DNA of 64,000 nt from NCBI GenBank assembly GCA_019096065.1, contig JAGUCH010000005.1, forward strand, positions 6,696,001-6,760,000, written 5' to 3'. This DNA is from Paracyclopina nana. Taxonomy: Eukaryota > Arthropoda > Copepoda > Cyclopoida > Cyclopettidae. Below the pieces are notes generated by a model, which was not told where the DNA came from, searched no databases, and saw nothing but the letters and a program-made list of their open reading frames with translations. How positions within the stretch are numbered: position 1 is the stretch's first letter; every line of letters begins with the position of its first letter. Positions 16,081 through 55,300 of this stretch are shown piece by piece. The position numbers and the translations under genes were made by a program.

Positions 16081-16109
16081 CTGGAAATAGCATATTTTTT
16101 TGGCATATT

Positions 16110-18290: not shown

Positions 18291-18294
18291 TGAG

Positions 18295-34900: not shown

Positions 34901-37900
34901 TAGTGTAGAGTGCCTATAAATGGGCAATTTTGTTGCAGAAAATGGAGAGAGTGAGGAACCAGAAGAAGTTAAACAAGCGTGGGATGAACTACATCTTCTG
35001 CAGCGAGAACAGCAGCGATACTCGGACATCAAATATGACCTGGAGCAAGACTTGGAGCGATGCAAGAAAAAGCAAGCAAAGCTGGAAGATGTGAGTGCAT
35101 CTCATGTTTCATCTTTCTATGATAGAGTCTATCATAGATGATTTTCTCTCCAATGACCGAGATAGATATTTGTCACATGGATGGAGTCTATCACAGATGA
35201 TTTTTTATGTCATAAATGAATGATAGAGTTACATGATAGATGACAGGGTATATAGTGTTTGCCTCCCGGCGAGGTTTTGTGACTCTATCTGGCTGGACTC
35301 ACTTTCGATCCCTTATGTTTTGTTTACTTTAGTACTTTATCGGATTTTATGCATGGCGGTCGTCAAAAATAAACGATCTGACCCAAAAGATCCCTTATAG
35401 AGTGCTCTTTTATTCGTGCGACGTTTATTTTTATCAGTTCATCGAGTCGAGATTACAGTGATCAGATTTACATGGCGACCAACGTTATCAGTTCCACACC
35501 GTGAGAGATCAAGAGTCAAGCTTACCGAGGGAGCCGGCGGCCATTGCAGTCAGCTGTTGCTGGCTGACAAGCTAAAGGAGTTTGCGAACGGGGGACAAAG
35601 CTTTGTCCCACGAAACGCAAACGAGGGGACAGTGAATCGGATGTCAAAGGACACTACCAAGAAGTACGGCCTCAGACACAATCCGATAAGGAATGTGAGG
35701 TTGACGTCGGGAGAGTATGAACACGAACTTCACGAAGCCAGGACCGCAAAAACAGTATCGAGTCGAGCGGATGAAGTCGAGGCTGCGAGGTCAGAGGAGG
35801 CCAACAGACGGATTGCCGAGTTCAAAAAGAGAGTCTCAAGTGATAAGTCAGTGTGTTTGTCAGGACACCCAGACACAATTGAGGGGACAAACACCCAGTT
35901 AGACACTGCGGGGACCGAGTGGGACCTCCGCTATAGTGACTCGACGTTGCTTGGTGACACGACAAACAACGTGCACATGATGACTGTCGAGCCAAATAAC
36001 ATGGCTCCGTGGAAGGAGGCTTGGGCAGGAACCAGAGCCGGCCTAGAAAGTGACATGGCAAAGCTCGAAGACAGTTTGACGGCTGCAACAAGAGCAGGAG
36101 CAGTGGAGTGTGTGCGAAATGGCCTCAATAAACTCATAGAAACACTTAAGAGTGATGCGGTGGTGCTGGAGTCGCTGGTGAGCCAGAGCGACAGGGAAGA
36201 GTTCGCAACGGAGATGAGAGCCATGAACAAGAGGCTGGTAGTGCTAGTGATGAAAGCCAGCACGAAAGCAAGGAATATCATGGTCGCGGGCGTATCGACA
36301 GAGGCAGAGACTTTAGTTGTCACTGCCTCTGAAAACGCTCCCAAGCAGCAAAACCACGACACCCAAGCGCAACCAGGGGAGTCCGAGGATGCGGAGGAAT
36401 CAGAGGTGGAAAAATGCATCACGCTGAACGGTGAGTTCTTTTCGCTAGTCTCACAATTGAAAAGCGCGGATAGGGAACTCAGAAAAATGAGAGCCGGTTC
36501 GATGGAAGCAGTGCGGCAGGCAAACATGATGAGAGAGGTCAACAGGAGAAGAGTGGAAGTGGGAGAAGAACTGCTCAAGATGCCAGACAACGCTGACTTT
36601 CCAGTCAACAAGCAGTGCATCGTGATTGGAAACAAAGAAGCTGAAAATATTGCGCGAAGCATGCCAGCACAAAGAGAAGAGAACGACCAGGAGACCACCC
36701 CACGGCCAACCAAGGGCCGCGAGGATAACATTGAGGAGAGAGGGCGCTACGCTGGTGCAGAAGAAGAAAGAACTCTGCAGCTGGGGGTCCCAGCAGTCCA
36801 CCTCACGGAAGAAAAATACAAAGAGAAGCTGGCAAAAGAAGAAGAGTTTCTGGATCAACACACGGTGATCGAACAAGTCAGAAGAAGGAAAACCACGGAT
36901 GTTTGTTGGGCAGACATCATGCAGAGGAAAAACCTCCACAGATTCTATGACCCAAGCCTGCCAAAGGACTCAAACTCAAGAGAGGATGTCAAGCCAATGT
37001 TCTTCGATGGAGCGAACACAGGAGCATACAAGGACTTCAAAGAATATGTCCACGCGGCAATCATCATGAAAAAGAACTTGAGCTGGTTCGAAAAGATCTC
37101 CAAACTCAAGTACTTGTGCACAGGAGGAGCAAAGTTCGCAGTGAGAAGGTGCACGCTGGACTTTGAAGGCCTGGTCAGCGCACTGGAAAATCTGGATGGC
37201 ACATATTTAGGACATCCAGGAGAAGCTGACGAAATGGTGCACGACCTCTCAGCTCAGTTGATCAAAATGGTGCCAATAAGCATGAAGAGTCTAGCAACAT
37301 TGGAAGCCACGCTAGCTCTAGTCGAGGAAATTATTGACTGCAACGGGCGAGCAGGAAAGGACGCCTTAGATGGAGAGCAGTCAATCCTGAGCAACATCCA
37401 ATTCGAGATAGGAGCCAGGAGAGATTACGAGAGGTTCAAAGAACAAAAAATGCAATCTCGAAACTCCTTGAGACTATTTATCACGTGGTCCAGGACAAGA
37501 ATAAGGGAAATCCAGAGAAGCAGAAAAGTATGCACGGTGGTAGAAGACATCAACAAGATGCACGACAGAAATTATCATCGAGGAACAGGCCAAGCCTACG
37601 GATATGTTCCACAAACCCAAGCAGCCGAACCCCCACAGCCAACCAGGGGCTACAGGGGAGGAGGCTTCAGAGGCCGAGCCAGGAGGCCCTTCTATGGAGG
37701 CAGAAGAGAGCAATCGTACTTCGCGTGGGGAGCAGCTTACCCCTCGAGATATGATGACCCCGATGATCAAGACTATTGGTGGGATGAAGAACAACGATGG
37801 CAAGGTTGCGAGAATGAGGTGGTTGCTCATTGCGAAGATCAAGGAGGCGATTGGTATGATTTTGGCTATCAAGACCAAGATGAAGAATGCGTCAACTTCG

Positions 37901-40900
37901 TCAATGGGAAAACGATCTGCCTTTTATGCAAGAAGCCAGGGCACAGGTGTAGCGACTGTCCAGAATGGAATCTGTTCAAGTTGCAAGATATCATCAAAGT
38001 CATTGACGAAGCAAAGATTTGCCCCCGGTGCTTGCAGGGCAAACACAAACTTAACGATTGCAAAAGACAATTAACCTGCGGTGTGTGCGGATCAGCAAGT
38101 CACCACACAAAGATCCATAGGCAGAAACCGAAGCCAGAAGAGGCGACGAAGAGCGTGGAAGACAAAGAAAATGTAAAAGAGCTGCTAGCATCAATGACGA
38201 AGCTTATGACGAAGCTGTCAGAAACTACACTCCTAAGTCAGGACCTTGGTTGTGCTGACGAAGGAGAACAAGCTGAGGATGTGATTTTGCTGGCAGCCCA
38301 AGCAACACGATCGTGGCTCACTGTGCCAGTGGAGGTAGCAAGCGACCTCTCGTTTGAAAAATCAGTGACAACGAACGCGCTCATCGATGCAGGATCGAGT
38401 GCAACATTATTGAAGCCCAGCTTAGCGAAACAAATGGGATTCAAGGGCAAAAGAAAGCAGCTGACAGTGCAAGTCGTGGGAGACAAGTCCATCACACAAC
38501 CATCACAAGAAGGCAAAATCTACATCAGAGCGAAAGACAGGAGCGGAGAAGTCTATGAACTAAAGTTCAACACCTTCGAGCTACCGGTGTCGATCAAACC
38601 TGTCGATCCGAACACAGTCAAGAAGGATCACAGCGAGCTGAGAGAAATTGAGTTCCCGGTGCCAGAGGAAGGTGGAGTGGGTCTTCTAGTTGGATTCAAC
38701 AACACCGTCCTAATGAGCAGTGAGAGAGACATCGTGGTGAAAGATGGACCGCTAGCAAGAAAAACGCCCCTGGGGTGGTCAATACTCAACTACCCAGGAG
38801 TGGGAGATAGCGAAGTGGCGTGCTTGGTTGACGACTGGAAGCTGTTCAATCAGTCGTCAATGACGGAGTCAGAGTTCAGGTACATGCTCGACAGACAGTA
38901 TGGCCTGGAGTCAATCGGAATTGACCGGAAGGAAGAGCCAGTCAAAAGACTCAACCTAGCAGAAGAGATAGCCTTGGTGAAAATGAAATCAACAATGAGA
39001 CTACTGCCATCAGGGCACGTAGAAGTGGCCATACCATTCATTAAGGAGGTCCCGGATTTGCCGGAGAACTTCTTGCAGTGTGCAGCGATCCAGAGAAGCC
39101 TAGACAAGAAACACGAAGCTGATCCAGGAGTCATGGAAGCAATTGGCTCAACATTTCAAGAATACCTGAGACTTGGCATAATAGAACCTGTGCCGAAGCA
39201 TGAACTAGGGAGAGGATATTTCCTCCCAGTGTTCTGCGTGGCTAGGCACACCAGCGAGACAACAAAATACAGGTTTGTGTACAATGCTAAGCAGAAGTTC
39301 AACGGGACGTCGATAAATGAGCAAATGTACACCGGCCCAAATTATCTAGAAGACATCTTCGATACCATGCTCCAATTCCGCGTGGGAGACATAGCTGTTG
39401 TGGCCGACATTGAAAAAATGTACTTAATGATCGCGCTGCCGGAGAAAGATAGGAAGTACGTCAGAGTGTTAATCCAAGGGCAGCAGTATCAGTTCTGCAG
39501 GTGGCCCTTTGGACTCAGAGCAGCCCCGTCAGTGGCAAATTTCGTGGTGAAGTCACACATCAAAAACAAAGGCTCCAGACTGCTCCAGGAGACAGTCAAC
39601 ATCTACATGGACGATGTGATCGTGGCCTTCAAGGCCAAAGAGACCGCAAAAAAGGTCATCGAAGAATTAATACCCCTCATGAGCGAAATTGGAATGGAGC
39701 TGAGAAAATTTGTTTCAAATGACAAAGATGTGCTGGAAAACGTGCCATTGGAAAGAAGGGGAAAATCGATGGTAGTGGAAGAGAACATGGAAGAAAGAAT
39801 ACACTCTACGCTTGGCCTTAAGTGGGACCCAGTGACAGATCGTATTGGGTACCAGCTGTCAAAACACAACCAGGGTGTAGTGACAAAGAGGATCATGGCA
39901 AGTCAGATCCCAGCGGTATTCGACCCGTTAGGAGCCTTAGCTCCGTGCTTATTGAAGGCCAGGAAAGCGCTCCAACTGGCTCACAAGGCGGACAAGGACA
40001 AAAAAATTGCGTGGGACGACGATTTGTCAAAAGTGGATGATAAGAACGCAAAGGAGGCAGTGAAACTGTGGAAGCAGTGGCAAAGTGAGTTCAATCAAAT
40101 GACAGAAGTCAGCTACCCAAGAAAAGCAGCGAGCTCAATTGACGAGAATACAATTCTCCACATGTGCAGCGACGGGTCGGATCTTGCATTTGCGACAGTG
40201 GCATATCTGAGCCAGAGAGGTGGAGAGCCACAACCAAGGTGGCTAACCACAAAAGCAAGAATACAAGGAGTCAGGCAAAGATCCATACCAGAAGTTGAAT
40301 TAGCAGGAGCGCTGCTCAGCTCAAGACTGTCGAACAGGCTCATCAGGCTCTTTGGAATCAAGAGAGAAAATGTGTGGTACTGGGTAGACAACAAGCCAGT
40401 AATCTACTGGATAAGGAAGCCAGGAGTGGAAAGGTGCGTGTTCGTGAGAAACAGAGTGATCGAAATCGCGGACACAACACTGATGGAGCATTGGAATCAC
40501 ATAGCCACAGCTGAGAACTCAGCAGACCTTCCAACGAGAGGCTGCACTGGCAATCAACTCAAGGACCACAAAAACTATTGGGAAGGTCCGGAGTTCTTCA
40601 AGAAGAACCAGGATGAATGGAGTTTGACAGACATCAAAGTCATAGAGGAAGAGCTGCTTGGATCAGGTGAGATAACATTGATGTGCGAGGACCTTGGTTG
40701 TCCTGGCACTGTTGTTGTCAATCAGTTAGCAATGATCCAACCTCATGACATACAAGATGGAGGTCAACAAGCAGTAGGTCCAAGCTACGAAGTCTTCAAG
40801 CGAATGGAAAATGTTATGAGTCTGCAGATGGCTGGAAGGTGGCCAGTGATGATCAGAGCGTTGGCAAGAATAATCGGCAGGAGCCGCGGGATGAAACTGG

Positions 40901-43900
40901 GCTACGTCATTCCGGATGATCTGATGGACGCAGCTACAACAAAAGTGCTGATATTTGGGCAGTGGCTGCAATGGGAAAAAGAGATGCTACAGTTCGAAAA
41001 GTCTGGAAAATGGCCCACAGCGATGCAAGGAAAACACGCGCTAATGATCAGTCGGGATGGCCTAGTCAGGGTGTGCACTAGACTATACAAGCAGGACTTG
41101 AAAGGATCGCAAATCAACCCAATTCTACTGGCGAACACGTGGCCGTTCATCTTGTATGTGTGGGGAATACACCTAGCAGAAAACCACATCAGGTATGACA
41201 ATTTGCTGCATAGATTATCACGAGAAGTTTCAGGGCCAGCAGTCAAAAAATTGGCCTACAAAGTGTCAAGAGAATGCAGCAAATGCAGGAGAGATCATGC
41301 CACCATGCCAAGACAGTTAATGGGAGGCATCACAAAAGTCGACCTGAAAAATTTGAGACCATGTGCGAAGGTGGCCATTGACTATACAGGAGCACAGTGG
41401 GTTAAATTCAGAAGAAAAAGAATTCCGGTGTATGTGCTAGTCGCCGTCTGCCTAGTAACGAAAGTAGTGACATTGGAAATCACCATGGGAATGAATACAG
41501 AAGATTTGATCTTGGCCCTAACAAGAATTGCAGCCCGAAGAGGACCAATCGAAGAGGCATACTCAGACAATGGTGGTAGCTTCAAGAAGGCGATGAGATT
41601 GTTGGAAAAGGAGCAGCATGGCAAGGCTCAAGACATGGAACACGAAGTTGAACAGATCGATTGGGAGTCAGTGCAACTCAGGACAACAAAGTTCGTGAGA
41701 AAATGGATCATGTCACCACCAAGAGATCATGAGGCAAACGGCCAAGTGGAAGCTTTTGTGAAGCTGGCAAAGAAAGCCATCCAAGACCACAATGATCGAG
41801 GAGAAGTGGATCTTGAAATCTACAGAACGTGGGTAGCTCAGGCCGAAAACGTGGTCAATTCAAGACCAATAGCAGTAATACGGCAAAATGATGACGAAAA
41901 ACTAGTCTTAACACCCAACCACCTTCTAGTTGGGAGGTTGGGAGACACAGGCATATTCTCAACAGACCACGAACTAGACTTCAATGTGCACGAACTAGCA
42001 CAAAGAATGGCGAAGTTTGAGAAGAGCTGGTGCGATTATTTTATGCAAAGCATGCATGACAGGTCAAAGTTCAGAACCAAATATGAAAGAAGATTGACAG
42101 AGGGAGACTTGGTTGTGGTGGCCGAGGAAGACCTTAATGTGAAAAGATTCAAGTGGAGAATAGCGAAGATTTTAAAGGTGAAAAAAAGCGCAGATGGCTT
42201 GGTGAGACGTGTAGTAGTGCAACAAGGAAGAAACATTTTCGAAAGAAGCATAAGGGACATCATCCCTGTTGGAGGATTCCCGCACATCCAGTTGAACTAA
42301 AAAAAAAAAAAAAAAAAAATGTTGTTGCACACACCCACCAAGAAATCACCCAACCCACACCACATAAATCTAGTCAAAACGAATTTTATGAGAGGACGAA
42401 GAGCGAGCCAAAAAATGTCTGGTAGCGCTGCAAGTATTGACGATCGGCTGAGCGACAGCTCAGCAGGTAAAGTGAGAAAAAACCCGCGCGCGCAATATTT
42501 TCCGCCAAATCACAACAGTGAAAATTGCGGATCGCATAGAGTGAAGAAAATGGCAGAGCGCGATGGAAGTGAGCGAAAAAGGAAGAGAATCACGGCTCCC
42601 GACAGCTCCCCGAGCCCTGGTTGCTCGAGGGAGCGGGAAAACAAGGAAGAATTGCGAATAACTATCGCCAATACGGGAGAGGAGCCTAGTGAACAAAGGC
42701 CAGATCATGGAGCGGCAGCGTTCACTTCAGAGCGACAAACGGACACGGCTGCCGAAATAATGCGAGTCACGGGCCTTAGAAGACTCCACTGGTACACCAA
42801 CAACGACGTTAGCCGCAGAGAAGCATTTTTCGTGGCGGCCAAGGACCCCGAGGCGCTGATCATCGGCGACCAATACAACTGGGGAGAAAAAATGCCCGAC
42901 GACACGAGACCCGCGGAGAAGAGAAGAAAACTTCGGCGAATGGACCTGTGGAGAGCGTACAGGGCGCTGCTTTGCCGAGCCAAGGGGATGACGCTGCTAG
43001 AGACGTATATGTTTTCTTATGGTAATCAATTCCTAGATATTTTGAGGCTGCAGAACGAGAACAAGGACCCAGAGCTGGAAGAACTCCCCGACAAGGCCAC
43101 AATGGTCAGGAATTGGATGGCAGCCAGAGCACTTGGGAACTACATAGCGGGCTCAGTGGAGGATGCAACCTGGGAAAGGGGCGTGCTTCAGGCGATGGAA
43201 GCGGGCCTGGGAATGCATGTTGCACCCAAGATGTACAAAATGTACCGAGAAGGCGATGTGGCCGACATCGTCATGATTGACCAGGCGAGGACCACGTTGT
43301 CGATTGAAGAAATGGAGCAGCTGTCGGTGTTCAAGAAGCTGCCGATAGTCACGAGAGAACACAATGAGCAATTTGTCAAGGCGCTCAAAGACACGTTGGA
43401 GGCTATCAACGGCCCACCTTTCCGGTGCTCGATGAGAATAGTCCACCACCGAGGCAGCCAAGTCATCGATAGTGAGAGAGAGAGCACCTCAAGTTTTGGC
43501 CCACTGGGTGGAGCTTCGAAGGGGCAAGACCCTGGTTGTCTTGCTCCAGAAAAAGCCGAACCTGGAATGGACCCGGCCAGAAGAGTGATCGTGGAAGAAG
43601 ATGAGCCGATGGAAGAGGCTGCGGTGGAGAAAGTAGCAGCGGCAACGCAGACTGAGCAGCAAAGCCCTGAGGAGCCACGGCCCTCGACGAGCAGAAGACA
43701 ACCATTGGTGATCCCAGCTGGCATGGAGGACGAGATCATGGCTGACTTTCGAGGATCTCAAATGAAGGACATGTCAGGGTTGAGGTCATCAGCCACGCCC
43801 ATGGATGACGACGAGGAGTACTTGCGTAAATATGATTTAAAATTTGAGTGTCCTGAGCTAGTTGCAGGCAAAGTTTATGACATGAAGAGCGAGCAAGCAA

Positions 43901-46900
43901 AAGCATGCAATCACATCGCGTGCGCCATTCGACGGGAGTTCGAGCTGGCAGAGACGATCGACAAGTCCATGACAGTGGCCTTGGTTGTCACTGTCAAAGA
44001 GGCTAGAAGGCTGGCATCGATGGCTCGAGGCACGCCCTACGATCTGGAGACGAAGGATTTGAACTCAGTGTACATTTACGGCCTCACCAAGAAGGACAAT
44101 GGATACACGGCAAACAGCTTCGAGGAGATTGAGCACTTCTTGGAAAGCGGGGACTTTTTTAGCTCTATTGACAGGAGCAAAGTGATGACGATTGACTGCG
44201 AGGGATTCCATCATTCCACCAAAGTGGCGTATGCGAAGAAATATCCGCCAACGGTCGACGAATTCAACAACATGACATCCTATGTGCACATGGGAGCCCC
44301 GAATGGAGTTGCTTTTGGCACTCGAGTGGCCTTTGTGGGCCCCAAATTCATTGGCAGGAAGCTGCCGCGGAGGATCGTGGAGTTGCTCGAGTCGGACAAG
44401 ATTTTCAAATTGGGCTTTGGAGTTGACGGCGACCTCAAGAGATTCAGGCTCATGGGCATCAATGTGAGGTCGTGGGTGGATGTTGGCCACATCATCAAGC
44501 TGCTGGATCCATCAGCCAACGTTGGCAAGGAGGAGATGCTGAGGCTGCTCAGAGTTCAACACTCGGTGAGGTTCCCGAAGTGGGCCAGAGAAGATCCTTA
44601 TGCTGGATTCGTGGACGAGTACTCCAAGGCGACAATCTACTATGACAGGATTGATCAATTCGCGCCGTTAGCCGGCCTTTTTAAGGCGGCCAGCATCGTA
44701 GCGGAATACGAAAACCTCGGGGAAGAAGACAACATGTACCCCTACGCCTTGGCCTTGCTGGCCTTGTATGTGAACGTCCCGCTCAGATTTGGCTCTCAGC
44801 CGAGAGTTGAGTTCGAGGGCCTGCTTGGTGATCCGACGCGCCCCCTGCAAGTGCTGAGAGCGGAATCGAGGCTTTTCAACTCAAGGGAAAGCATAGTCAA
44901 GAAGTTCAGGGACCTGGAGCTCCTGTGGCCTCTGTCAAGAGCGATGTTTTGGCACTTGTCTAATTCTGCCATCCAGCTCCTTGAGAGCGACCTGGAAGCG
45001 TCCCTGGTTGACCTTCACAGGGCCGCTGTCATTGATGGGGCTGTTGGGCGGATCACGACTACGGCCAAGAAGAACAGGAAGATCTCCAAGTATCCTCATG
45101 CGTGTGTCATCTGTGGGGACTTTGATCATGACTCAGCTGATTGCCTGGAGCTGCCGAGTTGTCATTTGCCCTTTTGCGGCCGAGATGGTCACTCATCCAA
45201 AGTCTGCCCACAAGTTCTGGAAGTTTGCCACGTGTGCGGAGGCCGCGGCCACAATGGTGGCCATCATCAGGACTCTGACCTGGTGCAGCTTTTTGCTGCC
45301 GAAAGAGTCGCCCCGTTCGTGCACGTCATGGCTGTCCGTCAAATGGACAGAAACGGAAGAATTCTAGTGATGCATCGGCATGGCGGCGTCAAGCCCCTGC
45401 GCAGGTTCGAGTAGTCTTGGTCCACCGATAGATTCCCAGAGGGGACTGTTTGCCTCCCGGCGAGGTTTTGTGACTCTATCTGGCTGGACTCACTTTCGAT
45501 CCCTTATGTTTTGTTTACTTTAGTACTTTATCGGATTTTATGCATGGCGGTCGTCAAAAATAAACGATCTGACCCAAAAGATCCCTTATAGAGTGCTCTT
45601 TTATTCGTGCGACGTTTATTTTTATCAGTTCATCGAGTCGAGATTACAGTGATCAGATTTACATATAGGGTAATGTTACTTTTATGATAGTCTATCAAAG
45701 ATGATGGAGTCTATCAAAAATGATGTCCTGGATTGCTGAGACTATCTTAGATTACTGAGACTATCTTAGATTACTGAGACTTTCTTAGATTACTGAGACT
45801 ATCTTAGATTACTGAGACTATCTTAGATTACCGGGACTATCTTGGATTACTGAGACTATCTTAGATTACTGAGACTATCTTAGATTACTGAGACTATCTT
45901 AGAATACTGAGACTATCTTAGATTACCGAGGCTATCTTAGATTACCGAGACTATCTTAGATTACTGAGACTATCTTAGATTACTGAGACAAGCTCAGATT
46001 GCTGAGGTTATCTTAGATTAGTGAGACTATCTTAGATTGCTGAGACTATATAAGATTGCTGAGACTATCTTATAGTGCTGAGACTAAATTAGATTACTGA
46101 TACTAAATTAGATTACTGATTCTATATTAGATTACTGAGACTATATTAGATTGCTTAGACTAGCATATATTGCTGAGACTATCTTATAATGCTGAGACTA
46201 AATTAGATTACTGATACTAAATTAGATTACTGAGACTATATTAGATTGCTGAGACTATCTTATACTGCTGAGATTATCTTAAATTACTGATACTATATTA
46301 GATTGTTGAGACTAGCATAGATTACTGAGACTATCTTAGATTGTTGAGACTATCTTATGCTTCTGAGACTATCTTAGATAACAGAGACTACAGTATGGTG
46401 TATTAGCCCATGAATTACCGCTAAAAGTGAAATGTTTTTGTGAGCGGAGGCGAAAGCTCCATTTTTCTCCTGAAAGGATCACTTGAGTGCAGTAAATACC
46501 CAATACTATTGGAAATCCTTCTATTTTTGGCCTCAAAAACAATTTGACAGTTGCGGCTCGAATGATCGCCGTCAATGTTTCTGTTGCAGGAATTACCAAA
46601 GCGGATCAGCACAGAGGAGGAAGCCGAGATTTTGTCTCTATTGTGCAAAGTGCATGAGTTGGAGATAGCTAAAGTGGAAATGCAGAGAGATGCTTTGCTT
46701 AAGGAGCACGAAGTACGAAAAAGGGATTTGCTCATCCTCAAATATGACAAACAGCGAAGCCTCTGCGATGAAATCATCGAAAGGCAGCGAGAACTCATTG
46801 AAGGTGCGATTTTCAATAGCTCAACATTTCTAAGAACTAATCATATAATAAGCGTAGTAAAAACTTTATTAAAAACTTAATTAAGCTTTCTAAAAAAAAG

Positions 46901-49900
46901 CCTTTCCTGGAGCTTTTAAAATACTTGACTTAGCTCTGAGTTCCTGGGTTTAAAAAGCTAAACTTTGCTTACTTTTTTCACTGAATTAAGCAATGGAAGC
47001 TAATAAAGGCCACGGTGGCTCAAAAGAAGGTTTGTTTGCTTTCATTAAGTGCACACGGTGGGAAAATGATTGAAAACCGCCATCTCACTGAGTGCTCAAC
47101 TTTCTCATTCTAGATGTGACTTTTTTGCTAGGTGTTTTGGCTGTCAAGCGTGAAATGCGATTTAACTCAACTACTTTTCTTCACTTGCTTTCCTCTCCTA
47201 AAATAGATTCTTCTCAGCACCAAGAGAGAAAATGTATGCGATAAGATTTTTAAGATTTTTTTTGTCAATCATGTGTAGTTTCAGTGTCCATCATAGTTTC
47301 AGTGTCTATCATAGTTTCAGTGTCTATCATAGTTTTGTGTCTCTTAGATTTTTGTGTCGATTAGAGTTTTGAGTCTATTATAGATTCGTGTTGTTCATAG
47401 TTTCAGTGTCTATCATAGTTTTGTGTCCACCATAGATTTGATTATTCATTATGGTTTCAAGTTTCTTTCAAAGTGTCTTTCTTGTGTTCGTTATAGTTTT
47501 GAGAATCCGTGAAAGCCTTGAATTTCCACTACATTTTTAAGTGTGTATCTCATGTCTATCATAAATTTGACTATCATTCTTGTCTTAAAAAAGTGTCTAC
47601 CATGGGTTTATACTAATTTTGAGTATCTGATATAGCTTTAAGTTTCCATTACATTTTTAAGTTTCTATCATAGTTTCAAGTGCCCACCATGGTTTTTGGA
47701 GGCTATCCAAGCCCAGTTTTGAGTCTATTATAATATAATAGGTTGGTTTATAAGTAGTTTTAATTTGGTGAATTGGATGTTACAAGCAAATCTTCTGCAA
47801 CTCCAGAAATGTGGGAAGGCCTTCTTCTGCTACAACACACGTTGGAGTAAAAACAAACATTTTTTGCAGAGACTTGCCCAGTCAACTGAGAAAAGCTCCT
47901 AGCTACTCTTGAATTGGGCTTTGCTCACGGTGTAGTTACATTTTGCCGAATAATGTAAAAAAGATGGCATTAGAAGTAACCTCCGATTCTTTTTCAAAGT
48001 CGCTTAAACTAGTTCGTCGCATAATCGTTATCATTTGGCTTTTTGACTTTAAAAAACGAAATATTTTGCGTTTTTGTCAAGAAAGGAGAGATTTTCTGCC
48101 TTTTCCAGAAATCTCAACCGTGTATCAAGTTAGATTTTCTTGGGCAAATTGTCCTACAAAGCATGCAATTATTACTGAATTTGCCCTTAAAATGACTACA
48201 AAACAAGATTAAAACTTGCTTTTCAAAAATTAGAAGACTGAAATATAAGTGAAGTAGTTGAAATATATCAAATCTGGATGCTTTTAAAATTGATCGGAGG
48301 TTCAATATTTTTAGATCGGGGCTAGTAGCAGGGCGGGTGGAAACAGAAACAGATCGAAACTCAATTTTCAGCCCGCTTAGCTTACACTGCTATTAGCTGG
48401 GGTATCATTAGCTCCTCCTGGCGGCAAAAATCATTACTACCAGAGCCTCCGTGAGCAAAGCCCAATTTGGCTCGTGTGTGCAAAAAAGTGCACCTTCACT
48501 GAAATAGCCAACATAAAATGCCACTTTTGCACCTACGATCCTCTTGATCTGGCGGTGTGTGTGCAAAAACGAAGGGCACTTTTCAAAATATTTTCATCAC
48601 CAAGAGTTGACCTTTCAGGTCAAGCCATGCCGATGCCACCAGAGCTGATGGAATTGTACAATTTGTACAAGCAAGAATTGGAAACGCGAAACAGCAAGGA
48701 TAACCAATTCATCGAGGACTTGAACAATGAAATCATTAGGGTGAGTTAAAACTGAAGTCAGCCTTAATTCAAATTCAATTGAAGAATGTTTTCCTATTTC
48801 AGTCGCCGAGCATGATTTCATTGAGGACCAGCAACAATTTGGACGAGTGGAGCTCCTCCCCTCATTTGCCGCCAATCAAGCAGGAGATGTCTGAAGACAG
48901 GTTATTCCAGTCACGTGATAACTTACGCGAAATGGACGAAGAAAGCAACGGCCCATATTCGTTTCACGGAAGAACTGAGAGCGAGAGGTAAGAAGAAAAA
49001 CCTCGGTTATTATTCCTTACGTCCACACTGACAAAAAGCTAACATAGCCAAGATATTTTTAGTAGCAGAAGCTGGAGCACATCCGTTGGAATCGGGGAAA
49101 ATGCATGAATAATTCATACACAAGTTGGAAGTTTTATCTCGTGAGCTTGTGCACACTGGGCTGCTCTTTTAAGAGCTTAACAGCTTTCTTAGACTCAGTC
49201 AATCGAAATGTAGATGCAAACTGAATTTCTTTGTCAATCTGAGACTTTAAGTCAAACTGAGAGTTTTAAGTCAAACTGAGAGTTTAAGTCAAACTGAGAG
49301 TTTTAGGTCAAACTGAGAGTTTTAGGTCAAACTGAGCGCTTAAGAGTTTTAAGTCAAACTGAGAGTTTTAAGTCAAACTGAGTTTTAAGTCAAACTGACA
49401 ATTCAAGTCAAACTGACAATTCAAGTCAAACTGACAATTCAAGTCAAACTGAGAGTTTTAAGTCAAACTGAGAGTTTTAAGTCAAACTGAGAGTTTTAAG
49501 TCAAACTGAGAGTTTTAAGTCAAACTGAGAGTTTTAAGTCAAACTTAGAATTTTAAGTCAAACTTAGAGTTTTAAGTCAAACTGAGAGTTTTAAGTCAAA
49601 TTGAGAGTATTAAGTCAAACTGAGTTTTAAGTCATACTGAGTTTTAAGTCAAACTGACAATTCAAGTCAAATTGAGAGTTTTAAGTTAAACTGAGTTTTA
49701 AGTCAAACTGACAATTCAAGTCAAACTGAGAGCTTAAGTCAAACTGAGAGTTTTAAGTCAAACTGAGAGTTTTAAGTCAAACTTAGTGTTTTAAGTCAAA
49801 CTGAGAGTTTTAAGTCAAACTTAGAGTTTTAAGTTAAACTTAGAATTTTAAGTCAAACTGAGAGTTTTAAGTCAAACTTAGAGTTTTAAGTCAAACTGAG

Positions 49901-52154
49901 AGTTTTTAGTCAAACTGAGAGTTTCAAGTCAAATTGAGAGTTTCAAGTCAAATTGAGAGTTTCAAGTCAAATTGAGAGTTTATAAGTCAAACTTAGCTAG
50001 AGTTTGAGATTAGCAGATTTTATCAGGTCAAACTGAGCTAAGCATTGTTATTCAAATGTTTTCCTTGTGAAGTTCTGCTGATGGTTTGCCGCCTATTGGA
50101 AGTGGGAGATCGTCAACAAGGTCGACAGCAAAGTTCCGATCCCGATCGGCCGAGGGCATCATAACGAGGAATAAAAGCCGGTCGGGAATTCCCATTCCGG
50201 TGGGGAAGCGAAACAAGCGGATCAAATCCTCGCAGTTGTCACGGTCAAACTCTGAAGCTGCTCCAACCAAGTTTCCACCCATAAAAAATAACCGCTGAAA
50301 AAAAATATCATAAATACAATGACAACGCTGAAAAATACACTTAAAGTGTGATGATACATGAAAAGCTTAATTGCGATTGCAGTGAAGAGTGTGACAAATT
50401 TGAAATTTGCAGTGCATTTGAAAAGCCAACTTTGGTTAGCAACTTTTAATTATGATCTACTCTTCTTTTGCAGGGAATTATCATCGACCAAAATTCCATC
50501 TTTGCCACCAATCAAAAATCGACGAGGGTGAGTGTTCTTCAAATTTGTCGACCTTAATTGATCTTTATTATTATTACTTTTGATTTTCAACAATTTTTTT
50601 CGAGCTTTTAAAAAATAATTTGACCATTTTGCCTCTTTCCTAATTTCTCACATCCTTCGTTTCAGCCATAAAAAGGCAAAAAAAGTCTTTTCAAAATTGT
50701 TATTCGTTGATCTTTATGCATATTTTTCAGGTTTAGACGATCTAACTCGTTCGGACCGAGGCATTCCACAGCTTATTACGATTTACCCGCGGGAGTTTCA
50801 AAATTACCCAGGAGATTAAATTACAGGTGAAAAAAATGTTTTGCCTGCCGTGACCAGGATTCGAACCTGGGTTACTGCGGCCACAACGCAGGGTCCTAAC
50901 CACTAGACGATCACGGCTACGGTGTCATATAAGCTTTTTCTTCCTATTTCGCTTTTTATTATGTATTTTCATTTACATACAATATTTTTTAGATTTTTTT
51001 AGTGAGGCATTTATGAAGGCAAAATCTCAGCAAATACTAGCTAAATTGAACCATATTTGGCAGGTATCACTAGGACAACCAACCAAAAATGCCCTTGCAG
51101 AATTTTAGCAAATTCTCAGGGTCGATTTCTTGAGGCCACTTCTCCACAGCTTTTGCTAACACACAAACGGCCTCGGATCTCCACCGAATTCATTCAGGAT
51201 ATTTGTGATGTCATCACAACTGTACTTGACAATTTTGGCACCATTCGGTTCAGAGATTGCTGAGATTAGAGCTTTCAAAGGCTGTGCTGCCTTCCTGGCA
51301 CTAAAATTGCATTTGTGTACGAGCTACATTGAATATTTGGCTCTTTTTTGCAGGCGAAATAGCGCTACTGATTTGCCATCTCCGTCGTCAGGGCGAAAAG
51401 CATCGTATCCATCTCAAGGCATCAACAGTAAGAGAGAAAAAAGGGCACACAGTGGGCCCAAAAAGAAAGCTACTTTACCTTATAATTTGTCCTCCTCCCC
51501 AGTGAGGCATCATTTTTCACTTTTTCCCCACAGTGTGCCCACCGAGGCTCGTTCTCATAATCAATTAAGCGGAGCTGAGATAAGCACGGCTCTTCTAAGG
51601 CTCGTAACCCTATGATTACTTAATGGATTGGCACCATGCTTAGGGTATAACAATTCTCCATGTTACAAGAGATCTGAGGCCGATTTCAAGTGACGGTTTT
51701 TGCCTTGCTTTGCTAAGCAACGCTTTGTTTAGTATGGCATTTTGAGGCTCTTATCTCAGCTTTAACTGTGCCTATTGGCATCTAATTTGGCAGATATCAA
51801 TACCACAATCCAATAGAGGTTGGTTCAGCCTTGCTTACAGCTAGCGGCCTAAAAAGCTAAGCAAGGCAAAATAGGCTCTGGATTTCGACCTCAGATCTGT
51901 CATCGACTTTTGCAATACCTTAAAAATGAATCAACAATGGTACCAAACGTCTGAGAGGGCCTCTGAGGTGCATCGCTTTACTATACTTTTTAATGCGTTG
52001 GAGAACGAGCCAAGTTGCTCTGCGAGACCTTTATGCATACTTTATACTTTCAGGCTCAGAATTTGCATCAACAGGAGGAAGAAGAGCCAAGAAAAAAATG
52101 AGCAAAAACACAGACCCATTTGAGAACATTTCCATTACGCTTCAAAGATACTGA
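28911..52154 (+). CDS. KIF19: Kinesin-8 family motor KIF19, 15 exons, about 973 aa
   Basis: Plus-end microtubule motor/depolymerase that sets ciliary length in vertebrates. Exons: 28911-29018, 30047-30127, 30466-30942, 31504-31707, 32215-32690, 33874-34253, 34939-35090, 46590-46803, 48619-48740, 48803-48987, 50073-50270, 50474-50527, 50731-50826, 51354-51427, 52054-52154. Phases agree throughout (2922 nt). The motor domain has VALRIRPL, P-loop GATGSGKT (132-139), switch I SSRSH (245-249) and switch II DLAGSE (279-284), with [20 protein letters not shown] and [17 protein letters not shown]19-type features follow: [15 protein letters not shown], then [24 protein letters not shown] and RSLCDEII in exon 8. 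Exon 6 codes a long acidic stretch. The serine/basic tail repeats an LPPIK motif. The exon 11 donor (CCAA|GTTTCC) is weak; reading on gives a stop at 50298 and a shorter isoform. Intron 7 holds a BEL/Pao element. Confidence 0.92.
29250..29715. repeat. 19-bp minisatellite in KIF19 intron 1
   Basis: Units of the form AGCTCAGTGTAGCGGGAGC, best preserved at 29400-29600 and decaying outward (TAGCGGAGATCA, TAGCGTGAGCAGC variants). Confidence 0.85.
31010..31380. repeat. 17-bp minisatellite in KIF19 intron 3
   Basis: Repeated AATCTGGATTCCCTGAG with variants (AACCTGGATT, GAACCTTGATTCCCTG). It is clearest at 31195-31260, where units are nearly identical. Confidence 0.85.
32810..33170. repeat. 17-18 bp minisatellite in KIF19 intron 5
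   Basis: Units of CCTTGTAAAGTAATTTT with variants in the AAAGCTATTTT and AAGGTAATTTT forms, starting just after exon 5. Confidence 0.85.
34340..34800. repeat. Hairpin-type dispersed repeat in KIF19 intron 6
   Basis: CTCAGCAATCAC near 34372 and 34530 is mirrored by GTGATTGCTGAG near 34764, and GCAAGG/GCCTTGCTTT words flank both ends. Similar words (CTCAGCAA, GATTGCTGAGAT, TTGCTTTGCTTAGC) recur at 51030-51900 and 58264-58664, so this is probably a dispersed inverted-repeat family. Confidence 0.55.
35256..35472 (+). repeat. 5' LTR
   Basis: 217 bp, TGTTTGCCTCCCGGCGAGG to GATCAGATTTACA. It acts as promoter and 5' end of the element. No certain TATA box was assigned; TATAGAGTGCTC near 35397 is a candidate. 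Confidence 0.95.
35473..35490 (+). other. Primer-binding site
   Basis: TGGCGACCAACGTTATCA begins at the first base after the LTR. TGG matches the universal tRNA 3' CCA; the tRNA is not identified, though TGGCGACC fits acceptor ends of GGTCGCCA type. Confidence 0.7.
35641..42300 (+). CDS. Gag-Pol polyprotein of BEL/Pao element, about 2219 aa
   Basis: The first in-frame ATG is at 35641; the open frame itself begins in the LTR. Order by position: charged N-terminal gag; DUF1759-like gag core about 36990-37540; arginine/glycine-rich linker; CCHC knuckles about 37915-38110 ([14 protein letters not shown]); aspartic protease with DAGS near 38389; reverse transcriptase with active site YMDD at 39604-39615 and [11 protein letters not shown]; RNase H from about 40158 ([23 protein letters not shown]); integrase with an HHCC finger (ECSKCRR) and D,D,E at AIDYTG, YSDNGG and ANGQVEAF (about 41375-41760); and the C-terminal DUF5641-type module ([21 protein letters not shown]). 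All catalytic motifs are intact. Together these residues support an active element. It ends in TAA directly before a run of A's. Confidence 0.95.
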   Translation: MSKDTTKKYGLRHNPIRNVRLTSGEYEHELHEARTAKTVSSRADEVEAARSEEANRRIAEFKKRVSSDKSVCLSGHPDTIEGTNTQLDTAGTEWDLRYSDSTLLGDTTNNVHMMTVEPNNMAPWKEAWAGTRAGLESDMAKLEDSLTAATRAGAVECVRNGLNKLIETLKSDAVVLESLVSQSDREEFATEMRAMNKRLVVLVMKASTKARNIMVAGVSTEAETLVVTASENAPKQQNHDTQAQPGESEDAEESEVEKCITLNGEFFSLVSQLKSADRELRKMRAGSMEAVRQANMMREVNRRRVEVGEELLKMPDNADFPVNKQCIVIGNKEAENIARSMPAQREENDQETTPRPTKGREDNIEERGRYAGAEEERTLQLGVPAVHLTEEKYKEKLAKEEEFLDQHTVIEQVRRRKTTDVCWADIMQRKNLHRFYDPSLPKDSNSREDVKPMFFDGANTGAYKDFKEYVHAAIIMKKNLSWFEKISKLKYLCTGGAKFAVRRCTLDFEGLVSALENLDGTYLGHPGEADEMVHDLSAQLIKMVPISMKSLATLEATLALVEEIIDCNGRAGKDALDGEQSILSNIQFEIGARRDYERFKEQKMQSRNSLRLFITWSRTRIREIQRSRKVCTVVEDINKMHDRNYHRGTGQAYGYVPQTQAAEPPQPTRGYRGGGFRGRARRPFYGGRREQSYFAWGAAYPSRYDDPDDQDYWWDEEQRWQGCENEVVAHCEDQGGDWYDFGYQDQDEECVNFVNGKTICLLCKKPGHRCSDCPEWNLFKLQDIIKVIDEAKICPRCLQGKHKLNDCKRQLTCGVCGSASHHTKIHRQKPKPEEATKSVEDKENVKELLASMTKLMTKLSETTLLSQDLGCADEGEQAEDVILLAAQATRSWLTVPVEVASDLSFEKSVTTNALIDAGSSATLLKPSLAKQMGFKGKRKQLTVQVVGDKSITQPSQEGKIYIRAKDRSGEVYELKFNTFELPVSIKPVDPNTVKKDHSELREIEFPVPEEGGVGLLVGFNNTVLMSSERDIVVKDGPLARKTPLGWSILNYPGVGDSEVACLVDDWKLFNQSSMTESEFRYMLDRQYGLESIGIDRKEEPVKRLNLAEEIALVKMKSTMRLLPSGHVEVAIPFIKEVPDLPENFLQCAAIQRSLDKKHEADPGVMEAIGSTFQEYLRLGIIEPVPKHELGRGYFLPVFCVARHTSETTKYRFVYNAKQKFNGTSINEQMYTGPNYLEDIFDTMLQFRVGDIAVVADIEKMYLMIALPEKDRKYVRVLIQGQQYQFCRWPFGLRAAPSVANFVVKSHIKNKGSRLLQETVNIYMDDVIVAFKAKETAKKVIEELIPLMSEIGMELRKFVSNDKDVLENVPLERRGKSMVVEENMEERIHSTLGLKWDPVTDRIGYQLSKHNQGVVTKRIMASQIPAVFDPLGALAPCLLKARKALQLAHKADKDKKIAWDDDLSKVDDKNAKEAVKLWKQWQSEFNQMTEVSYPRKAASSIDENTILHMCSDGSDLAFATVAYLSQRGGEPQPRWLTTKARIQGVRQRSIPEVELAGALLSSRLSNRLIRLFGIKRENVWYWVDNKPVIYWIRKPGVERCVFVRNRVIEIADTTLMEHWNHIATAENSADLPTRGCTGNQLKDHKNYWEGPEFFKKNQDEWSLTDIKVIEEELLGSGEITLMCEDLGCPGTVVVNQLAMIQPHDIQDGGQQAVGPSYEVFKRMENVMSLQMAGRWPVMIRALARIIGRSRGMKLGYVIPDDLMDAATTKVLIFGQWLQWEKEMLQFEKSGKWPTAMQGKHALMISRDGLVRVCTRLYKQDLKGSQINPILLANTWPFILYVWGIHLAENHIRYDNLLHRLSREVSGPAVKKLAYKVSRECSKCRRDHATMPRQLMGGITKVDLKNLRPCAKVAIDYTGAQWVKFRRKRIPVYVLVAVCLVTKVVTLEITMGMNTEDLILALTRIAARRGPIEEAYSDNGGSFKKAMRLLEKEQHGKAQDMEHEVEQIDWESVQLRTTKFVRKWIMSPPRDHEANGQVEAFVKLAKKAIQDHNDRGEVDLEIYRTWVAQAENVVNSRPIAVIRQNDDEKLVLTPNHLLVGRLGDTGIFSTDHELDFNVHELAQRMAKFEKSWCDYFMQSMHDRSKFRTKYERRLTEGDLVVVAEEDLNVKRFKWRIAKILKVKKSADGLVRRVVVQQGRNIFERSIRDIIPVGGFPHIQLN
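42299..42319 (+). other. A21 tract joining ORF1 stop to ORF2 start
   Basis: The last two bases of the ORF1 TAA plus 19 more A's end in the A of the ORF2 ATG at 42319. ORF1 and ORF2 share a frame, so only the single TAA and six AAA codons separate them. It may serve readthrough, reinitiation or transcript slippage, or be unstable DNA. Confidence 0.8.
42319..45414 (+). CDS. ORF2 of BEL/Pao element: DEDDy 3'-5' exonuclease-like protein with knuckles, 1031 aa
   Basis: A charged N-terminus (alternative ATGs at 42388 and 42415) leads into a helical region of unknown kind (about residues 150-370), an acidic/serine linker, then a fold matching DEDD exonucleases of the WRN/EXD type: D626 and E628 in TIDCEG (Exo I), D705 in [11 protein letters not shown] (Exo II) and Y775-x3-D779 in [15 protein letters not shown] (Exo III). 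The C-terminus (about 929-985) has Cys/His clusters [20 protein letters not shown] and [14 protein letters not shown] resembling retroviral-type knuckles. There is no signal peptide or membrane helix, so it is not an env gene. It probably binds nucleic acid and trims 3' ends. I know of no standard BEL/Pao protein of this kind. The exonuclease call rests on motif reading alone. Confidence 0.8.
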   Translation: MLLHTPTKKSPNPHHINLVKTNFMRGRRASQKMSGSAASIDDRLSDSSAGKVRKNPRAQYFPPNHNSENCGSHRVKKMAERDGSERKRKRITAPDSSPSPGCSRERENKEELRITIANTGEEPSEQRPDHGAAAFTSERQTDTAAEIMRVTGLRRLHWYTNNDVSRREAFFVAAKDPEALIIGDQYNWGEKMPDDTRPAEKRRKLRRMDLWRAYRALLCRAKGMTLLETYMFSYGNQFLDILRLQNENKDPELEELPDKATMVRNWMAARALGNYIAGSVEDATWERGVLQAMEAGLGMHVAPKMYKMYREGDVADIVMIDQARTTLSIEEMEQLSVFKKLPIVTREHNEQFVKALKDTLEAINGPPFRCSMRIVHHRGSQVIDSERESTSSFGPLGGASKGQDPGCLAPEKAEPGMDPARRVIVEEDEPMEEAAVEKVAAATQTEQQSPEEPRPSTSRRQPLVIPAGMEDEIMADFRGSQMKDMSGLRSSATPMDDDEEYLRKYDLKFECPELVAGKVYDMKSEQAKACNHIACAIRREFELAETIDKSMTVALVVTVKEARRLASMARGTPYDLETKDLNSVYIYGLTKKDNGYTANSFEEIEHFLESGDFFSSIDRSKVMTIDCEGFHHSTKVAYAKKYPPTVDEFNNMTSYVHMGAPNGVAFGTRVAFVGPKFIGRKLPRRIVELLESDKIFKLGFGVDGDLKRFRLMGINVRSWVDVGHIIKLLDPSANVGKEEMLRLLRVQHSVRFPKWAREDPYAGFVDEYSKATIYYDRIDQFAPLAGLFKAASIVAEYENLGEEDNMYPYALALLALYVNVPLRFGSQPRVEFEGLLGDPTRPLQVLRAESRLFNSRESIVKKFRDLELLWPLSRAMFWHLSNSAIQLLESDLEASLVDLHRAAVIDGAVGRITTTAKKNRKISKYPHACVICGDFDHDSADCLELPSCHLPFCGRDGHSSKVCPQVLEVCHVCGGRGHNGGHHQDSDLVQLFAAERVAPFVHVMAVRQMDRNGRILVMHRHGGVKPLRRFE
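45438..45446 (+). other. Polypurine tract
   Basis: AGAGGGGAC lies directly before the 3' LTR, where the plus-strand primer is expected. Confidence 0.75.
45447..45663 (+). repeat. 3' LTR
   Basis: 217 bp, no difference from the 5' LTR seen by eye. It is followed by the target copy TATAG. Confidence 0.95.
45675..46390. repeat. 19-bp minisatellite in KIF19 intron 7
   Basis: More than 30 units of GAGACTATCTTAGATTACT, starting immediately beyond the retrotransposon's 3' target copy. Related words (ATGATAGAGTCTATCATAG) lie left of the element at 35100-35250, so the retrotransposon landed at the edge of this array. Confidence 0.9.
47270..47745. repeat. Degenerate minisatellite in KIF19 intron 8
   Basis: Irregular copies of AGTTTCAGTGTCTATCAT and variants (TTTTGAGTCTATTATAG), about 17-20 bp each. 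Confidence 0.75.
49235..50035. repeat. 19-bp minisatellite in KIF19 intron 10
   Basis: About 40 units of AGAGTTTTAAGTCAAACTG with shorter forms (ACAATTCAAGTCAAACTG). It ends about 40 bp before the exon 11 acceptor. Confidence 0.9.
50846..50917 (-). tRNA. tRNA-His (GTG)
   Basis: 72 bases on the minus strand, inside KIF19 intron 13 and antisense to it. The acceptor stem GCCGTGA pairs with TCACGGC; the A-box-like TCGTCTAGTGGTTAGGA, anticodon loop with GTG, and B box GGTTCGAATCC are all present. The discriminator A is encoded and there is no intron or encoded CCA. It carries a complete internal promoter, so it is probably functional. Confidence 0.93.
51010..51900. repeat. Dispersed hairpin-family sequence in the last KIF19 introns
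   Basis: Words such as AAATCTCAGCAAA, AGAGATTGCTGAGAT and GCCTTGCTTTGCTAAGCA recur in both orientations around exon 14, as in the repeat of intron 6 and at 58264-58664. Boundaries are not clear. Confidence 0.45.
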
Positions 52155-52377: not shown

Positions 52378-55300
52378 TCACACCCCGAAATTCATTCTGA
52401 GCTGCTCGTAGAAAATGAAGGTGAGAATGGTGTGGGGACCGAGCCGAACGAAAGCGGGCACAAAGCCTTTGAAAAAGGCCGAAGGGCCTTGCTTGGCAGT
52501 GAACATGATCAAATCCATCGGGCCTTTAAAGTCACCAGGTTTGGCATTCATCGCACGCGTTTTCAGCACGTCCAAAGGCTGTGTCATCATCGTGGCAATT
52601 CCACCCTAGAATAAAAGGAAACTTTTTCATAGTTCATCCAAATAGGCTAGCTCAAAACTCGTTCGGAACTATTCCGCTAGAAGGAGCTAAGATTTGTTGT
52701 TGGCGGAATTTGCGTAAGCGACCATGCGCTCAAAATATATTTTTGCCATTCGTTCATTCAAAGCGCCAAAATGTAAACATAATAAAAATATCCAAGCATG
52801 GATACACCTTCCCCCCCTACGCTGGCGCCATCAAATGGTGAAGTGGCAAAACGCCTGAACTAAATCTTTTAGCCTAGGCTATAGATTGCAAAAGGGCATA
52901 ATATTACGTAATCTATTTTATGAACAGGATTAAAAAACCTTAATTTTTTCCAATTGTAACTTTCCTAATTGATTGGGTGCGAAAATGGCTCTTTTTTTAC
53001 ATTAAGTAAAGTCGTGTGAAATGACGTCGGTCAGTGACGCAAATCCGACGTGAAACGTGTGTCTTTTTTTAAGGCTCTGTGTCAACAGTCCGTATGTCAC
53101 GTGCCTTGAAAAAATAAGAAGACAGAAATAACAGCGAAACAACCCACCGAAAAAAAGAGTGAGGAAAATAATTCAGCTGATTTTTCGCCAATTTGTGGTC
53201 ACGGCCGCAACTACTGTCTTTCTATATACAACAATTGGCATTTTTTTCATGACTTTGAACCACACAAAAGGTGCCACTCTACTTTCCATAGGCTGAATAC
53301 CGAATGAAAGCAATGTGATCAACGCGTCATGTACTTGAAAACTTTGTCCTTTTTGCTTCAAGACTTGAGACTCGTTTCAAGTTTTTACAATCTTTACAAG
53401 CCATTAGTCCTTGGGCTCGTCACAAGTCCTTGGGCTCGTCACAAGTCCTTGGGCTCGTCACAAGTTCTCAGGACCATAACAATTCCCATAATCAGTTCTT
53501 AGGCTCGCTAGACTAGTTACAAGTCCTTAGACTCATTACAAGTCCTTAGACTCGTTACAAGTCCTTAGACTCGTTACAAGTCCTTAGACTCGTTACAAGT
53601 CCTTAGACTCGTTACAAGTCCTTAGGCTCGTTAAGTCATTTTTTTCGTTACAAGTCCTTGGGCTCGTCACAAGTCCTTGAGCTCATTACAAGTTCTCAGG
53701 ACCATAACAATTCCCATAATCAGTTATTAGGCTCGCTAGACTAGTTACAAGTCCTCAGACTCGTTACAAGTCCTTAGGCTCGTTAAAAGTCATTTTTTTC
53801 GTTACAAGTCCTTGGTTTTGTTACAAGTCCTTAGGCTCGCTACAAGTCCTTAGCCTCCTTAAAAATCCTTAGGCTCATTACAAGTCCTTAAATTATGCTC
53901 GTTACAAGTCCTTAGGCTCATTAAAAGCTCTCAGGATCATTACAAGAACTTAGGCTCGCTACAAGTCCTTAGGCTAGTTACAAGACCTTGAACTTGTGAC
54001 AAGCCCTCAGACTCGTTAGAAGGCTATTATTTACCTGTTCCAAAACCTTCCGCTACGCTAAAACATTAATGATGTCTGAGTTACTGCCTTTTTTGGGGGG
54101 ATCAAGATAGGATGGATTGCAAGCTCTCACGATGAAAATTCTATCAGGTGACAACATCAGAGTGTGAAAAGTATTGCCCACAGAGCTGAATGAAAAAGTG
54201 GCGCGAGAATATTGGCCATGCTCAAAATAGCTCTCACACGAAACCCAATTTGAGGCTGCTCTCTTTTTTTTTTTTATCGACCCTGAGGTGAGTCTAATGC
54301 AATAATCTCTTTTCATTCCAACTCATCAGATAGCTTTAAAGTCACTTTTAGGAGCTTATTCACATAATTTCAAATCATTTCAACGCATTTCTATTATCTT
54401 CAAGTCAAGTATAACCCCTTGAAGTCATTTGAAGCCCTTTTAATCGTGTTAGAAAGCCTTGCCAAGTGGCATTATTTTAGGGTCTTGATACTGATATGGC
54501 AGCCTCAAAAGCTTCCTCAGAGCATGAGGTGGCATTAATTAAAATCCTGAAGACGAAAATTGTGTCAAGGCAAATAGAGGCCACTTTTCGGTTGGCTTGG
54601 CCTTTTGATTAATTAAGGCCTAAATTGGAGCTTGTTTAGAATCTTAGAATAGGATACTCACTGCACAAAGGCTGCTGGTGAAATGAGTAGTCAGGTTGTC
54701 TTTGAAGTATGGCGTGGTCAACAGTTTGGCCTTGATGACGTCATAGAAGCAAAGTTGTCCCACGGTGACGAGTACAGCCCTGGAAGAGGCCCAAGAGGCC
54801 CCGTTGAACAGCTTGGCTAGGCCCTCCTCACGTACCACCCTCACCACGCCGTCCAAAGCGTGCTTATAGCTGGAAAAGCAAATACAGTTCATTTCATGCT
54901 GGAAAGAGTCCATTTTTGGGCAACAAGTGACATTTGTTAGCCAACAAGAGTACTATTACATGAAGGCAGTCTATTTTGGGCTCACACCCAAAAAAGCTTA
55001 ATTTGATGGAAGCTTAGGAAAGCCCCACCACTCAATCACAAAAATGTTGTGGCTGGGATATTGCAAATTGCGTATTTGTATTCAGTACGCATGTGCGCTA
55101 ATTGCCTGCTGTTATGTAAGCAATGTGTATTGTCTTAACAAGTATGTATTGCGTCATTGGATAGATAACAAGAATAGTTACGACGAGAAAAAACAACCTG
55201 AGTCGACATTGAGAAAGACCACAATTATTGTTTGATGCCACAGAGGAAAGTTTTCAGTTGTAAGCAATGGGCATAGTTGTAAACTGCACAAAAGGGAATG

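Follow-up and report, generated by a model that had tools for sequence, protein, structure and literature searches.

We analyzed a 64,000-nucleotide (nt) stretch of the genome of the copepod Paracyclopina nana (the window; coordinates are positions in it). The window holds one complete long terminal repeat (LTR) retrotransposon, a BEL/Pao element at 35256-45663 (10,408 bp). We found that this element carries, past its gag-pol frame, an additional open reading frame, ORF2, which is kept under strong purifying selection and is predicted to encode a DEDDy 3'-5' exonuclease. On balance, we favor the explanation that ORF2 is an exonuclease of the EXD2/WRN/RNase D kind, very probably active, which was acquired once and likely acts on RNA in trans. 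An earlier note on the window had read ORF2 as an element-borne DEDDy exonuclease, and the invariant catalytic set, the predicted fold, and the selection described below support that reading. ORF2 residues are numbered on the longer open frame of 1031 amino acids (aa).

Conservation and predicted fold of ORF2

The gag-pol frame matched the Pfam families Peptidase_A17 (3.2e-26), RVT_1 (7.6e-11), and DUF5641 (4.9e-12) over their cut-offs and rve, Asp_protease_2, zf-CCHC_2, and DUF1759 under them. Because the A17 peptidase, reverse transcriptase (RT), and DUF5641 stand in one gag-pol frame, the element belongs to BEL/Pao. The matches over cut-off, together with the LTRs and the target-site duplication, bear out the label that the earlier note had given it.

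A search of the host genome (Paracyclopina nana assembly, 92 Mb, 10 contigs) with the window's ORF2 returned at least 59 matching stretches of 24-100% identity (45 of 224 candidates scored), and relatives of ORF2 lie in at least about 40 places. We extracted 29 stop-free full-length ORF2s, including that of the window (L001), and aligned 27 of them (alignment A1), which are 25-82% identical to the window's. The other two, L007 and L035, were omitted as copies of L006 and L034; each pair has 2 differences, over 3,009 and 3,396 nt of ORF2, respectively. Fragments and broken copies stand outside the 27 (L009-L011, L015, L016, L018-L021, L027, and L040-L044), among them L011, which has internal stops. 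The nearest relative of the window's copy is an ORF2 in three pieces at C4:8462774-8467054 (97-99% identity). The near-identical pairs and the identical LTRs of the window element indicate that several lineages moved recently.

The earlier note had placed a D-x-E at residues 626/628, an Exo II Asp at 705, a Y-x3-D at 775/779, and three Cys/His clusters in ORF2, and all are there. The catalytic residues (D626, E628, D705, Y775, and D779) are kept in related copies, being invariant in all 27. The exonuclease domain has 34 invariant columns among its 276 residues, and all five catalytic positions are among these (the chance of five named positions all being invariant is about 2e-5); therefore, the DEDDy signature is more than chance. 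The note had also proposed a hidden Markov model (HMM) search against DNA_pol_A_exo1 (PF01612), and here the result was divided. The window's copy alone matched no Pfam family, so that a single-sequence HMM test would have missed the exonuclease, but 17 of the 27 copies matched PF01612 at E<=0.1 (best, 1.3e-4). Searching the genome with PF01612 gave 17 rows, 10 of them ORF2 copies; 4 of these 10 were over the curated cut-off, one only with its neighbors.

By sequence, the window's ORF2 alone reached EXD2 in the PDB at E 0.43. We then compared structures. The predicted fold of residues 552-827 matched the DEDD exonucleases TbRND, RRP6, WRN, and EXD2 by Foldseek, with EXD2 at the top; further matches were the proofreading domains of family A polymerases and Egalitarian. 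Thus, the structure prediction that the note had suggested returned an exonuclease fold, with WRN among its matches. Conservation, Pfam, and the predicted fold support residues 550-825 as a DEDDy exonuclease of the DEDD/RNase H-like fold. The N-terminal conserved domain (predicted model, pLDDT 75) had no Foldseek match at E<=0.001. The profile of the zinc knuckles matched the LIN28 knuckles (E 0.003).

A protein of this kind might instead be a catalytically dead nucleic-acid binder, like Maelstrom and EXD1, which are described as catalytically lost (PMC5408684; here and below, statements on the literature refer to the available text of the cited papers). It would bind element RNA for assembly or transport. 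The zinc knuckles and the basic tail described below would fit such a binder, as would the presence among the fold matches of Egalitarian, an RNA transport adaptor with an exonuclease-like domain. However, invariance of the five catalytic positions in all 27 copies is unexpected once catalysis is lost, and we consider a dead binder improbable.

Three cysteines ahead of the exonuclease domain (C511, C530, and C535; window 43849-43923) are also invariant in all 27 copies and are perhaps another metal site. In the gag part of the window element, the knuckle order (CCHC, CCHC-like, CCHH) is by eye the same as in ORF2. We dropped the idea that the ORF2 knuckles came from gag, as 75 of 500 shuffles keeping Cys and His scored as high as the real gag segment.

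Table 1. Positions of the element's parts and of the ORF2 domains in the window
Feature	Position	Strand	Basis
5' target-site duplication TATAG	35251..35255	.	Read from the sequence; same five bases at 45664-45668
5' LTR, 217 bp, TG...CA	35256..35472	+	Identical to 45447-45663
Putative primer-binding site TGGCGACC...	35473..35490	+	TGG start, adjoins LTR; by eye
gag-pol frame: zinc knuckles, protease, RT, Pao peptidase A17 region, integrase, DUF5641	35641..42300	+	Pfam
Spacer from pol stop to ORF2 start, with run of A and motif CCGCCAAAT at 42502	42301..42549	+	
ORF2 from its conserved start codon, Met78 of the longer frame; 954 aa	42550..45414	+	
N-terminal conserved domain, residues 113-370	42655..43428	+	dN/dS 0.00-0.05 in four pairs
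DEDDy exonuclease domain, residues 550-825	43966..44793	+	Conservation, Pfam, predicted fold
Exo I: D626 and E628	44194..44202	+	Invariant, 27/27 copies
Exo II: D705	44431..44433	+	Invariant, 27/27; aligns with Exo II Asp of WRN and EXD2
Exo III: Y775 and D779, Y-x3-D	44641..44655	+	Invariant, 27/27 copies
Zinc knuckles C929 C932 H937 C942; C948 C953 H958 C963; C970 C973 H978 H983	45094..45273	+	Twelve ligands invariant, 27/27
3' LTR	45447..45663	+	Identical to 5' LTR
3' target-site duplication TATAG	45664..45668	.	Matches 35251..35255

Start codon, selection, and inheritance with pol

The frame at 42319-45414 that the earlier note had reported is open over 1031 aa, but its start is most probably the ATG at 42550 and not 42319. 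An ATG stands at residue 78 in 26 of the 27 aligned copies and one codon off in L013. We calculated the ratio of nonsynonymous to synonymous substitution rates (dN/dS, by NG86) for the four pairs that, among all pairs, had an overall dS below 1.6. The ratios were 1.07, 1.20, 0.54, and 0.58 over residues 1-77 and 0.07, 0.07, 0.07, and 0.04 over residues 78-1031 of the same pairs, three of which are near synonymous saturation. The unsaturated pair, L006/L008, has 51.5 synonymous versus 12.5 nonsynonymous changes after Met78. The conserved ATG and the fall in dN/dS from 0.5-1.2 to 0.04-0.07 led us to place the start at Met78.

The note had proposed looking for purifying selection on ORF2 in related elements, and these ratios reveal it. 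They also bear on whether ORF2 is a neutral passenger, that is, an unneeded piece of a host gene picked up by chance. There is a precedent in bdelloid elements, whose DEDDy ORF3s have no clear departure from neutrality (PMC5408684). However, past Met78 dN/dS is 0.04-0.07 in four pairs, including an unsaturated one, and there are 29 stop-free full-length frames, which makes a passenger hardly credible.

Of the 22 copies whose locus includes pol, 21 have 177-358 nt between the pol stop and the ORF2 ATG, and all three frame relations occur; this range omits L002 (689 nt; early stop in its pol segment) and five rows without pol in the locus. A spacer of this length in no fixed frame argues that ORF2 forms its own cistron, in an env-like position. 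We rejected read-through or frameshifting as the common route of ORF2 expression, since the frame relation of pol to the ATG is 0, 1, or 2 among copies; in the window's copy, the two share one frame. A run of 21 A at 42299-42319 takes in the last part of the pol stop codon as well as the start first assigned to ORF2, and the spacers of other copies also have A runs. Upstream of the ORF2 ATG, a motif YCGYCAAA is present in 20 of 27 copies. CGTCAAA itself is present in 14, whereas simulations gave 1.7 on average and at most 6 (uncorrected for relatedness). A splice-donor-like TGTGAGTA lies in the spacer of seven copies (L022-L025, L030, L031, and L038; 8-mer count, places by eye) and may bear on ORF2 expression. 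The first 40 residues past the ATG contain 8-19 lysines plus arginines (K+R) across copies, with at least 16, as RS/RD/RE-rich runs, in 12 of 27.

The position of ORF2 between pol and the 3' LTR is where env is found in a few BEL/Pao elements (PMC3118150), which would suit a disguised env-like protein. The predicted exonuclease fold argues against this. By a simple hydropathy scan, we found no membrane span in the window's protein (top 19-residue value, 1.42) and no hydrophobic stretch common to all copies. Values above 1.6 occurred in 3 of 27 proteins (L006, 1.82; L017, 1.72; L008, 1.66), with two more at 1.60. We regard an env-like protein as very improbable.

We asked whether ORF2 is inherited with pol. 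The window's RT piece found at least 94 rows in the genome (94 of 322 candidates scored). For each of the 41 rows with at least 49% identity (about 39 elements, since two were split), ORF2 was matched downstream on the same strand at no more than 15 kb, and for 36 of them the distance was 1.2-3.5 kb. None of the 53 rows with at most 35% identity had such a match. Two ORF2 fragments had no RT row. ORF2 diverges faster than RT, and a distant ORF2 could therefore be missed. A genome search with the divergent L030 protein (41 of 280 candidates scored) gave at least 47 rows, all by eye at known loci. This makes a hidden set of distant ORF2s less likely without excluding one. We compared trees of the pol C terminus and ORF2 for 19 of the 27 rows, those whose locus includes at least 260 aa of pol (L002 omitted). 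Both trees divide the rows, with good support, into 9 and 10, and both have the groups of 6, 5, and 5; conflicts are confined to weakly supported forks, such as the placement of L012 (a long branch). Because the trees agree in their main clades, there was probably one old acquisition of ORF2, which would then have been carried with pol.

Co-inheritance with pol would also be expected of a DNA replication enzyme, either one that trims cDNA 3' ends prior to integration or a proofreader working beside RT to remove mismatched ends. The presence of WRN and the family A proofreading domains among the fold matches points the same way. However, ORF2 is unfused to pol, with its own start at a distance and in no fixed frame, and, among the candidates scored, more distant BEL/Pao elements in this genome apparently manage without it. 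For these reasons trimming or proofreading of cDNA is less favored, and we think it rather doubtful.

In a comparison with eight DEDDy segments of the host from six loci (L047 and L051 are each in two pieces, and L053 repeats L051), the exonuclease profile matched one, the EXD2-like L046 (19.9 bits; E 4e-4 if the database size is taken as 25,000), which itself matches human EXD2 at 1.2e-19. In the PDB, the profile matched WRN (E 0.019) and EXD2 (E 0.035). By sequence, then, EXD2 and WRN are nearest to ORF2. EXD2 appears to be its nearest host enzyme, through a weak match that suggests kinship rather than orthology, and ORF2 seems to fall on the EXD2/WRN side, with capture from Paracyclopina nana not implied. 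The profile link is confined to the exonuclease domain, and ORF2 also has an N-terminal domain of its own and the three zinc knuckles. L048 (G000:C4:6468836-6469354), a DEDDy gene of the host that weakly matches RRM, is on the same strand as the ORF2 of L012 and about 7 kb downstream, probably by chance.

We found no homologue in a set of 5.8 billion proteins, either with the single ORF2 sequence at E<=0.001 (7,986 candidates sharing the most words scored) or with alignment A1 at E<=0.01 (7,985 scored likewise). Viral contigs had no match to residues 501-1031, to the exonuclease alignment A3, or to the RT piece, and phage records had no ORF2 homologue. These collections probably contain few animal sequences; therefore, the negative results say little on other animals.

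Surroundings of the element

The LTRs are identical and flanked by TATAG, indicating that the window insertion is recent. Software gave an LTR length of 218 bp, because the next base is T by chance at both ends; we cut it to 217 bp by eye. The element seems to sit in sense orientation within a kinesin gene, inside an intron: motor segments of kinesin lie at 30466 and 32173 (Pfam), and by eye an exon ends near 35090 and another starts near 46590. Three arrays of 19-bp units, with consensus sequences unrelated to each other, lie at 45731-46390, 49233-49993, and 53406-54022, the first beginning 67 bp past the 3' LTR.

Elsewhere in the window, two long CCTCAC-like repeat arrays, one per strand (9520-12127 and 16114-18307; GC skew, about -0.96 and +0.92), yield spurious open frames of up to 900 aa. 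Between them are tandem arrays of a 169-bp unit (12704-14632; 11 copies, 97% matches) and a 161-bp unit (15166-16116). The repeat arrays are flanked on the minus strand by two similar gene segments of the amiloride-sensitive sodium channel type, one at 23544-24488 (Pfam ASC, 4e-31) and one at 8033-8827, judged by eye. The minus strand at 1458-5910 carries nitric oxide synthase exons, which match NO_synthase (1.4e-41) as well as reductase domains.

Related systems and proposed role of ORF2

Exonuclease genes have been found in other mobile elements. The bdelloid LTR elements Juno and Vesta and the Athena Penelope-like elements carry DEDDy ORF3s, acquired at least twice (Rodriguez et al. 2017, PMC5408684). 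Juno and Vesta resemble the window element in having an additional DEDDy ORF past pol, and Vesta2 and Vesta5 also have a Cys-His-Cys motif. Compared by description only, however, they belong to other LTR clades and their motif is DEED. BEL and Pao do not occur as whole words in that text. A DnaQ-like exonuclease is among the known accessory domains of LTR elements (PMC6338049, citing Rodriguez et al. 2017 and Ustyantsev et al.), and Terminons have DEDDy exonucleases (PMC6431247). Dada elements likewise bear a DEDDy exonuclease, for which 3'-end processing was suggested, but they are DNA transposons and the domain lies within the transposase (PMC3706591). According to the available text of a BEL/Pao survey, few elements have env, and the word exonuclease is absent from that text (PMC3118150). 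In the env-bearing elements, too, a third gene follows pol and precedes the 3' LTR, but theirs encodes an envelope protein, whereas the copepod gene is predicted to encode an enzyme. By title and abstract opening, we found no DEDDy exonuclease in BEL/Pao in the literature searched, most subscription papers being outside its scope. Thus, a DEDDy exonuclease gene in BEL/Pao appears to be new, DEDDy ORFs in other LTR clades being already known.

In the explanation that we favor, the ancestor of one BEL/Pao clade would have acquired the exonuclease gene once. Translation from its own start codon would yield ORF2 as a separate protein, and the message might be a shorter spliced mRNA, as with env genes. 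The tail is basic, with RS/RD-rich sequence in 12 of 27 copies, and may bring the protein to the nucleus. The three zinc knuckles would probably grip single-stranded nucleic acid and pass its 3' end to the two-metal site of the exonuclease domain for 3'-5' cleavage. The most likely substrate would be RNA or an RNA-DNA hybrid, in trans, and ORF2 would trim the ends of the element's own RNA or destroy RNAs that would silence the element. We favor RNA because Trypanosoma brucei RNase D (TbRND) is a mitochondrial guide-RNA trimming enzyme (PMC7797062) and EXD2 digests RNA-DNA hybrids among many substrates (PMC13425236). TbRND (PDB 7c42 and others) differs from ORF2 in having four fingers rather than three and in not residing in an element, and the two are 12% identical.

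Several points weigh against this explanation. The window's copy by itself matched no Pfam family, and the PDB matches of the exonuclease profile are weak. WRN, which is an equally good fold match, acts on DNA. The tail of the window's copy is only slightly basic (10 K+R versus 8 D+E in 40 residues), so that the reading of the tail depends on other copies. The apparent absence of ORF2 from distant BEL/Pao elements rests on 45 of 224 and 41 of 280 candidates scored. Finally, the claims on activity, transcript, and localization, like those on substrate and role, are predictions. The more specific proposal, that ORF2 is a nuclear counter-defense or RNA-processing nuclease, RS/RD-tailed, with its own message, in the place of env, and independent of the rotifer elements, is tentative. 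If it is true, a BEL/Pao clade has a nuclease that removes silencing RNAs or matures element RNA in trans.

Selection on DEDDy ORFs is not evident in the bdelloid elements (PMC5408684), whereas the copepod BEL/Pao element keeps the DEDD set intact at dN/dS near 0.05. That it does so over deep divergence argues that the gene very probably serves the element. Such elements may use a nuclease of their own in copying or against host defenses. Lineages with ORF2 and lineages apparently without it share one genome, so that its role can be compared within one host. This makes testable why retroelements repeatedly acquire 3'-5' exonucleases.

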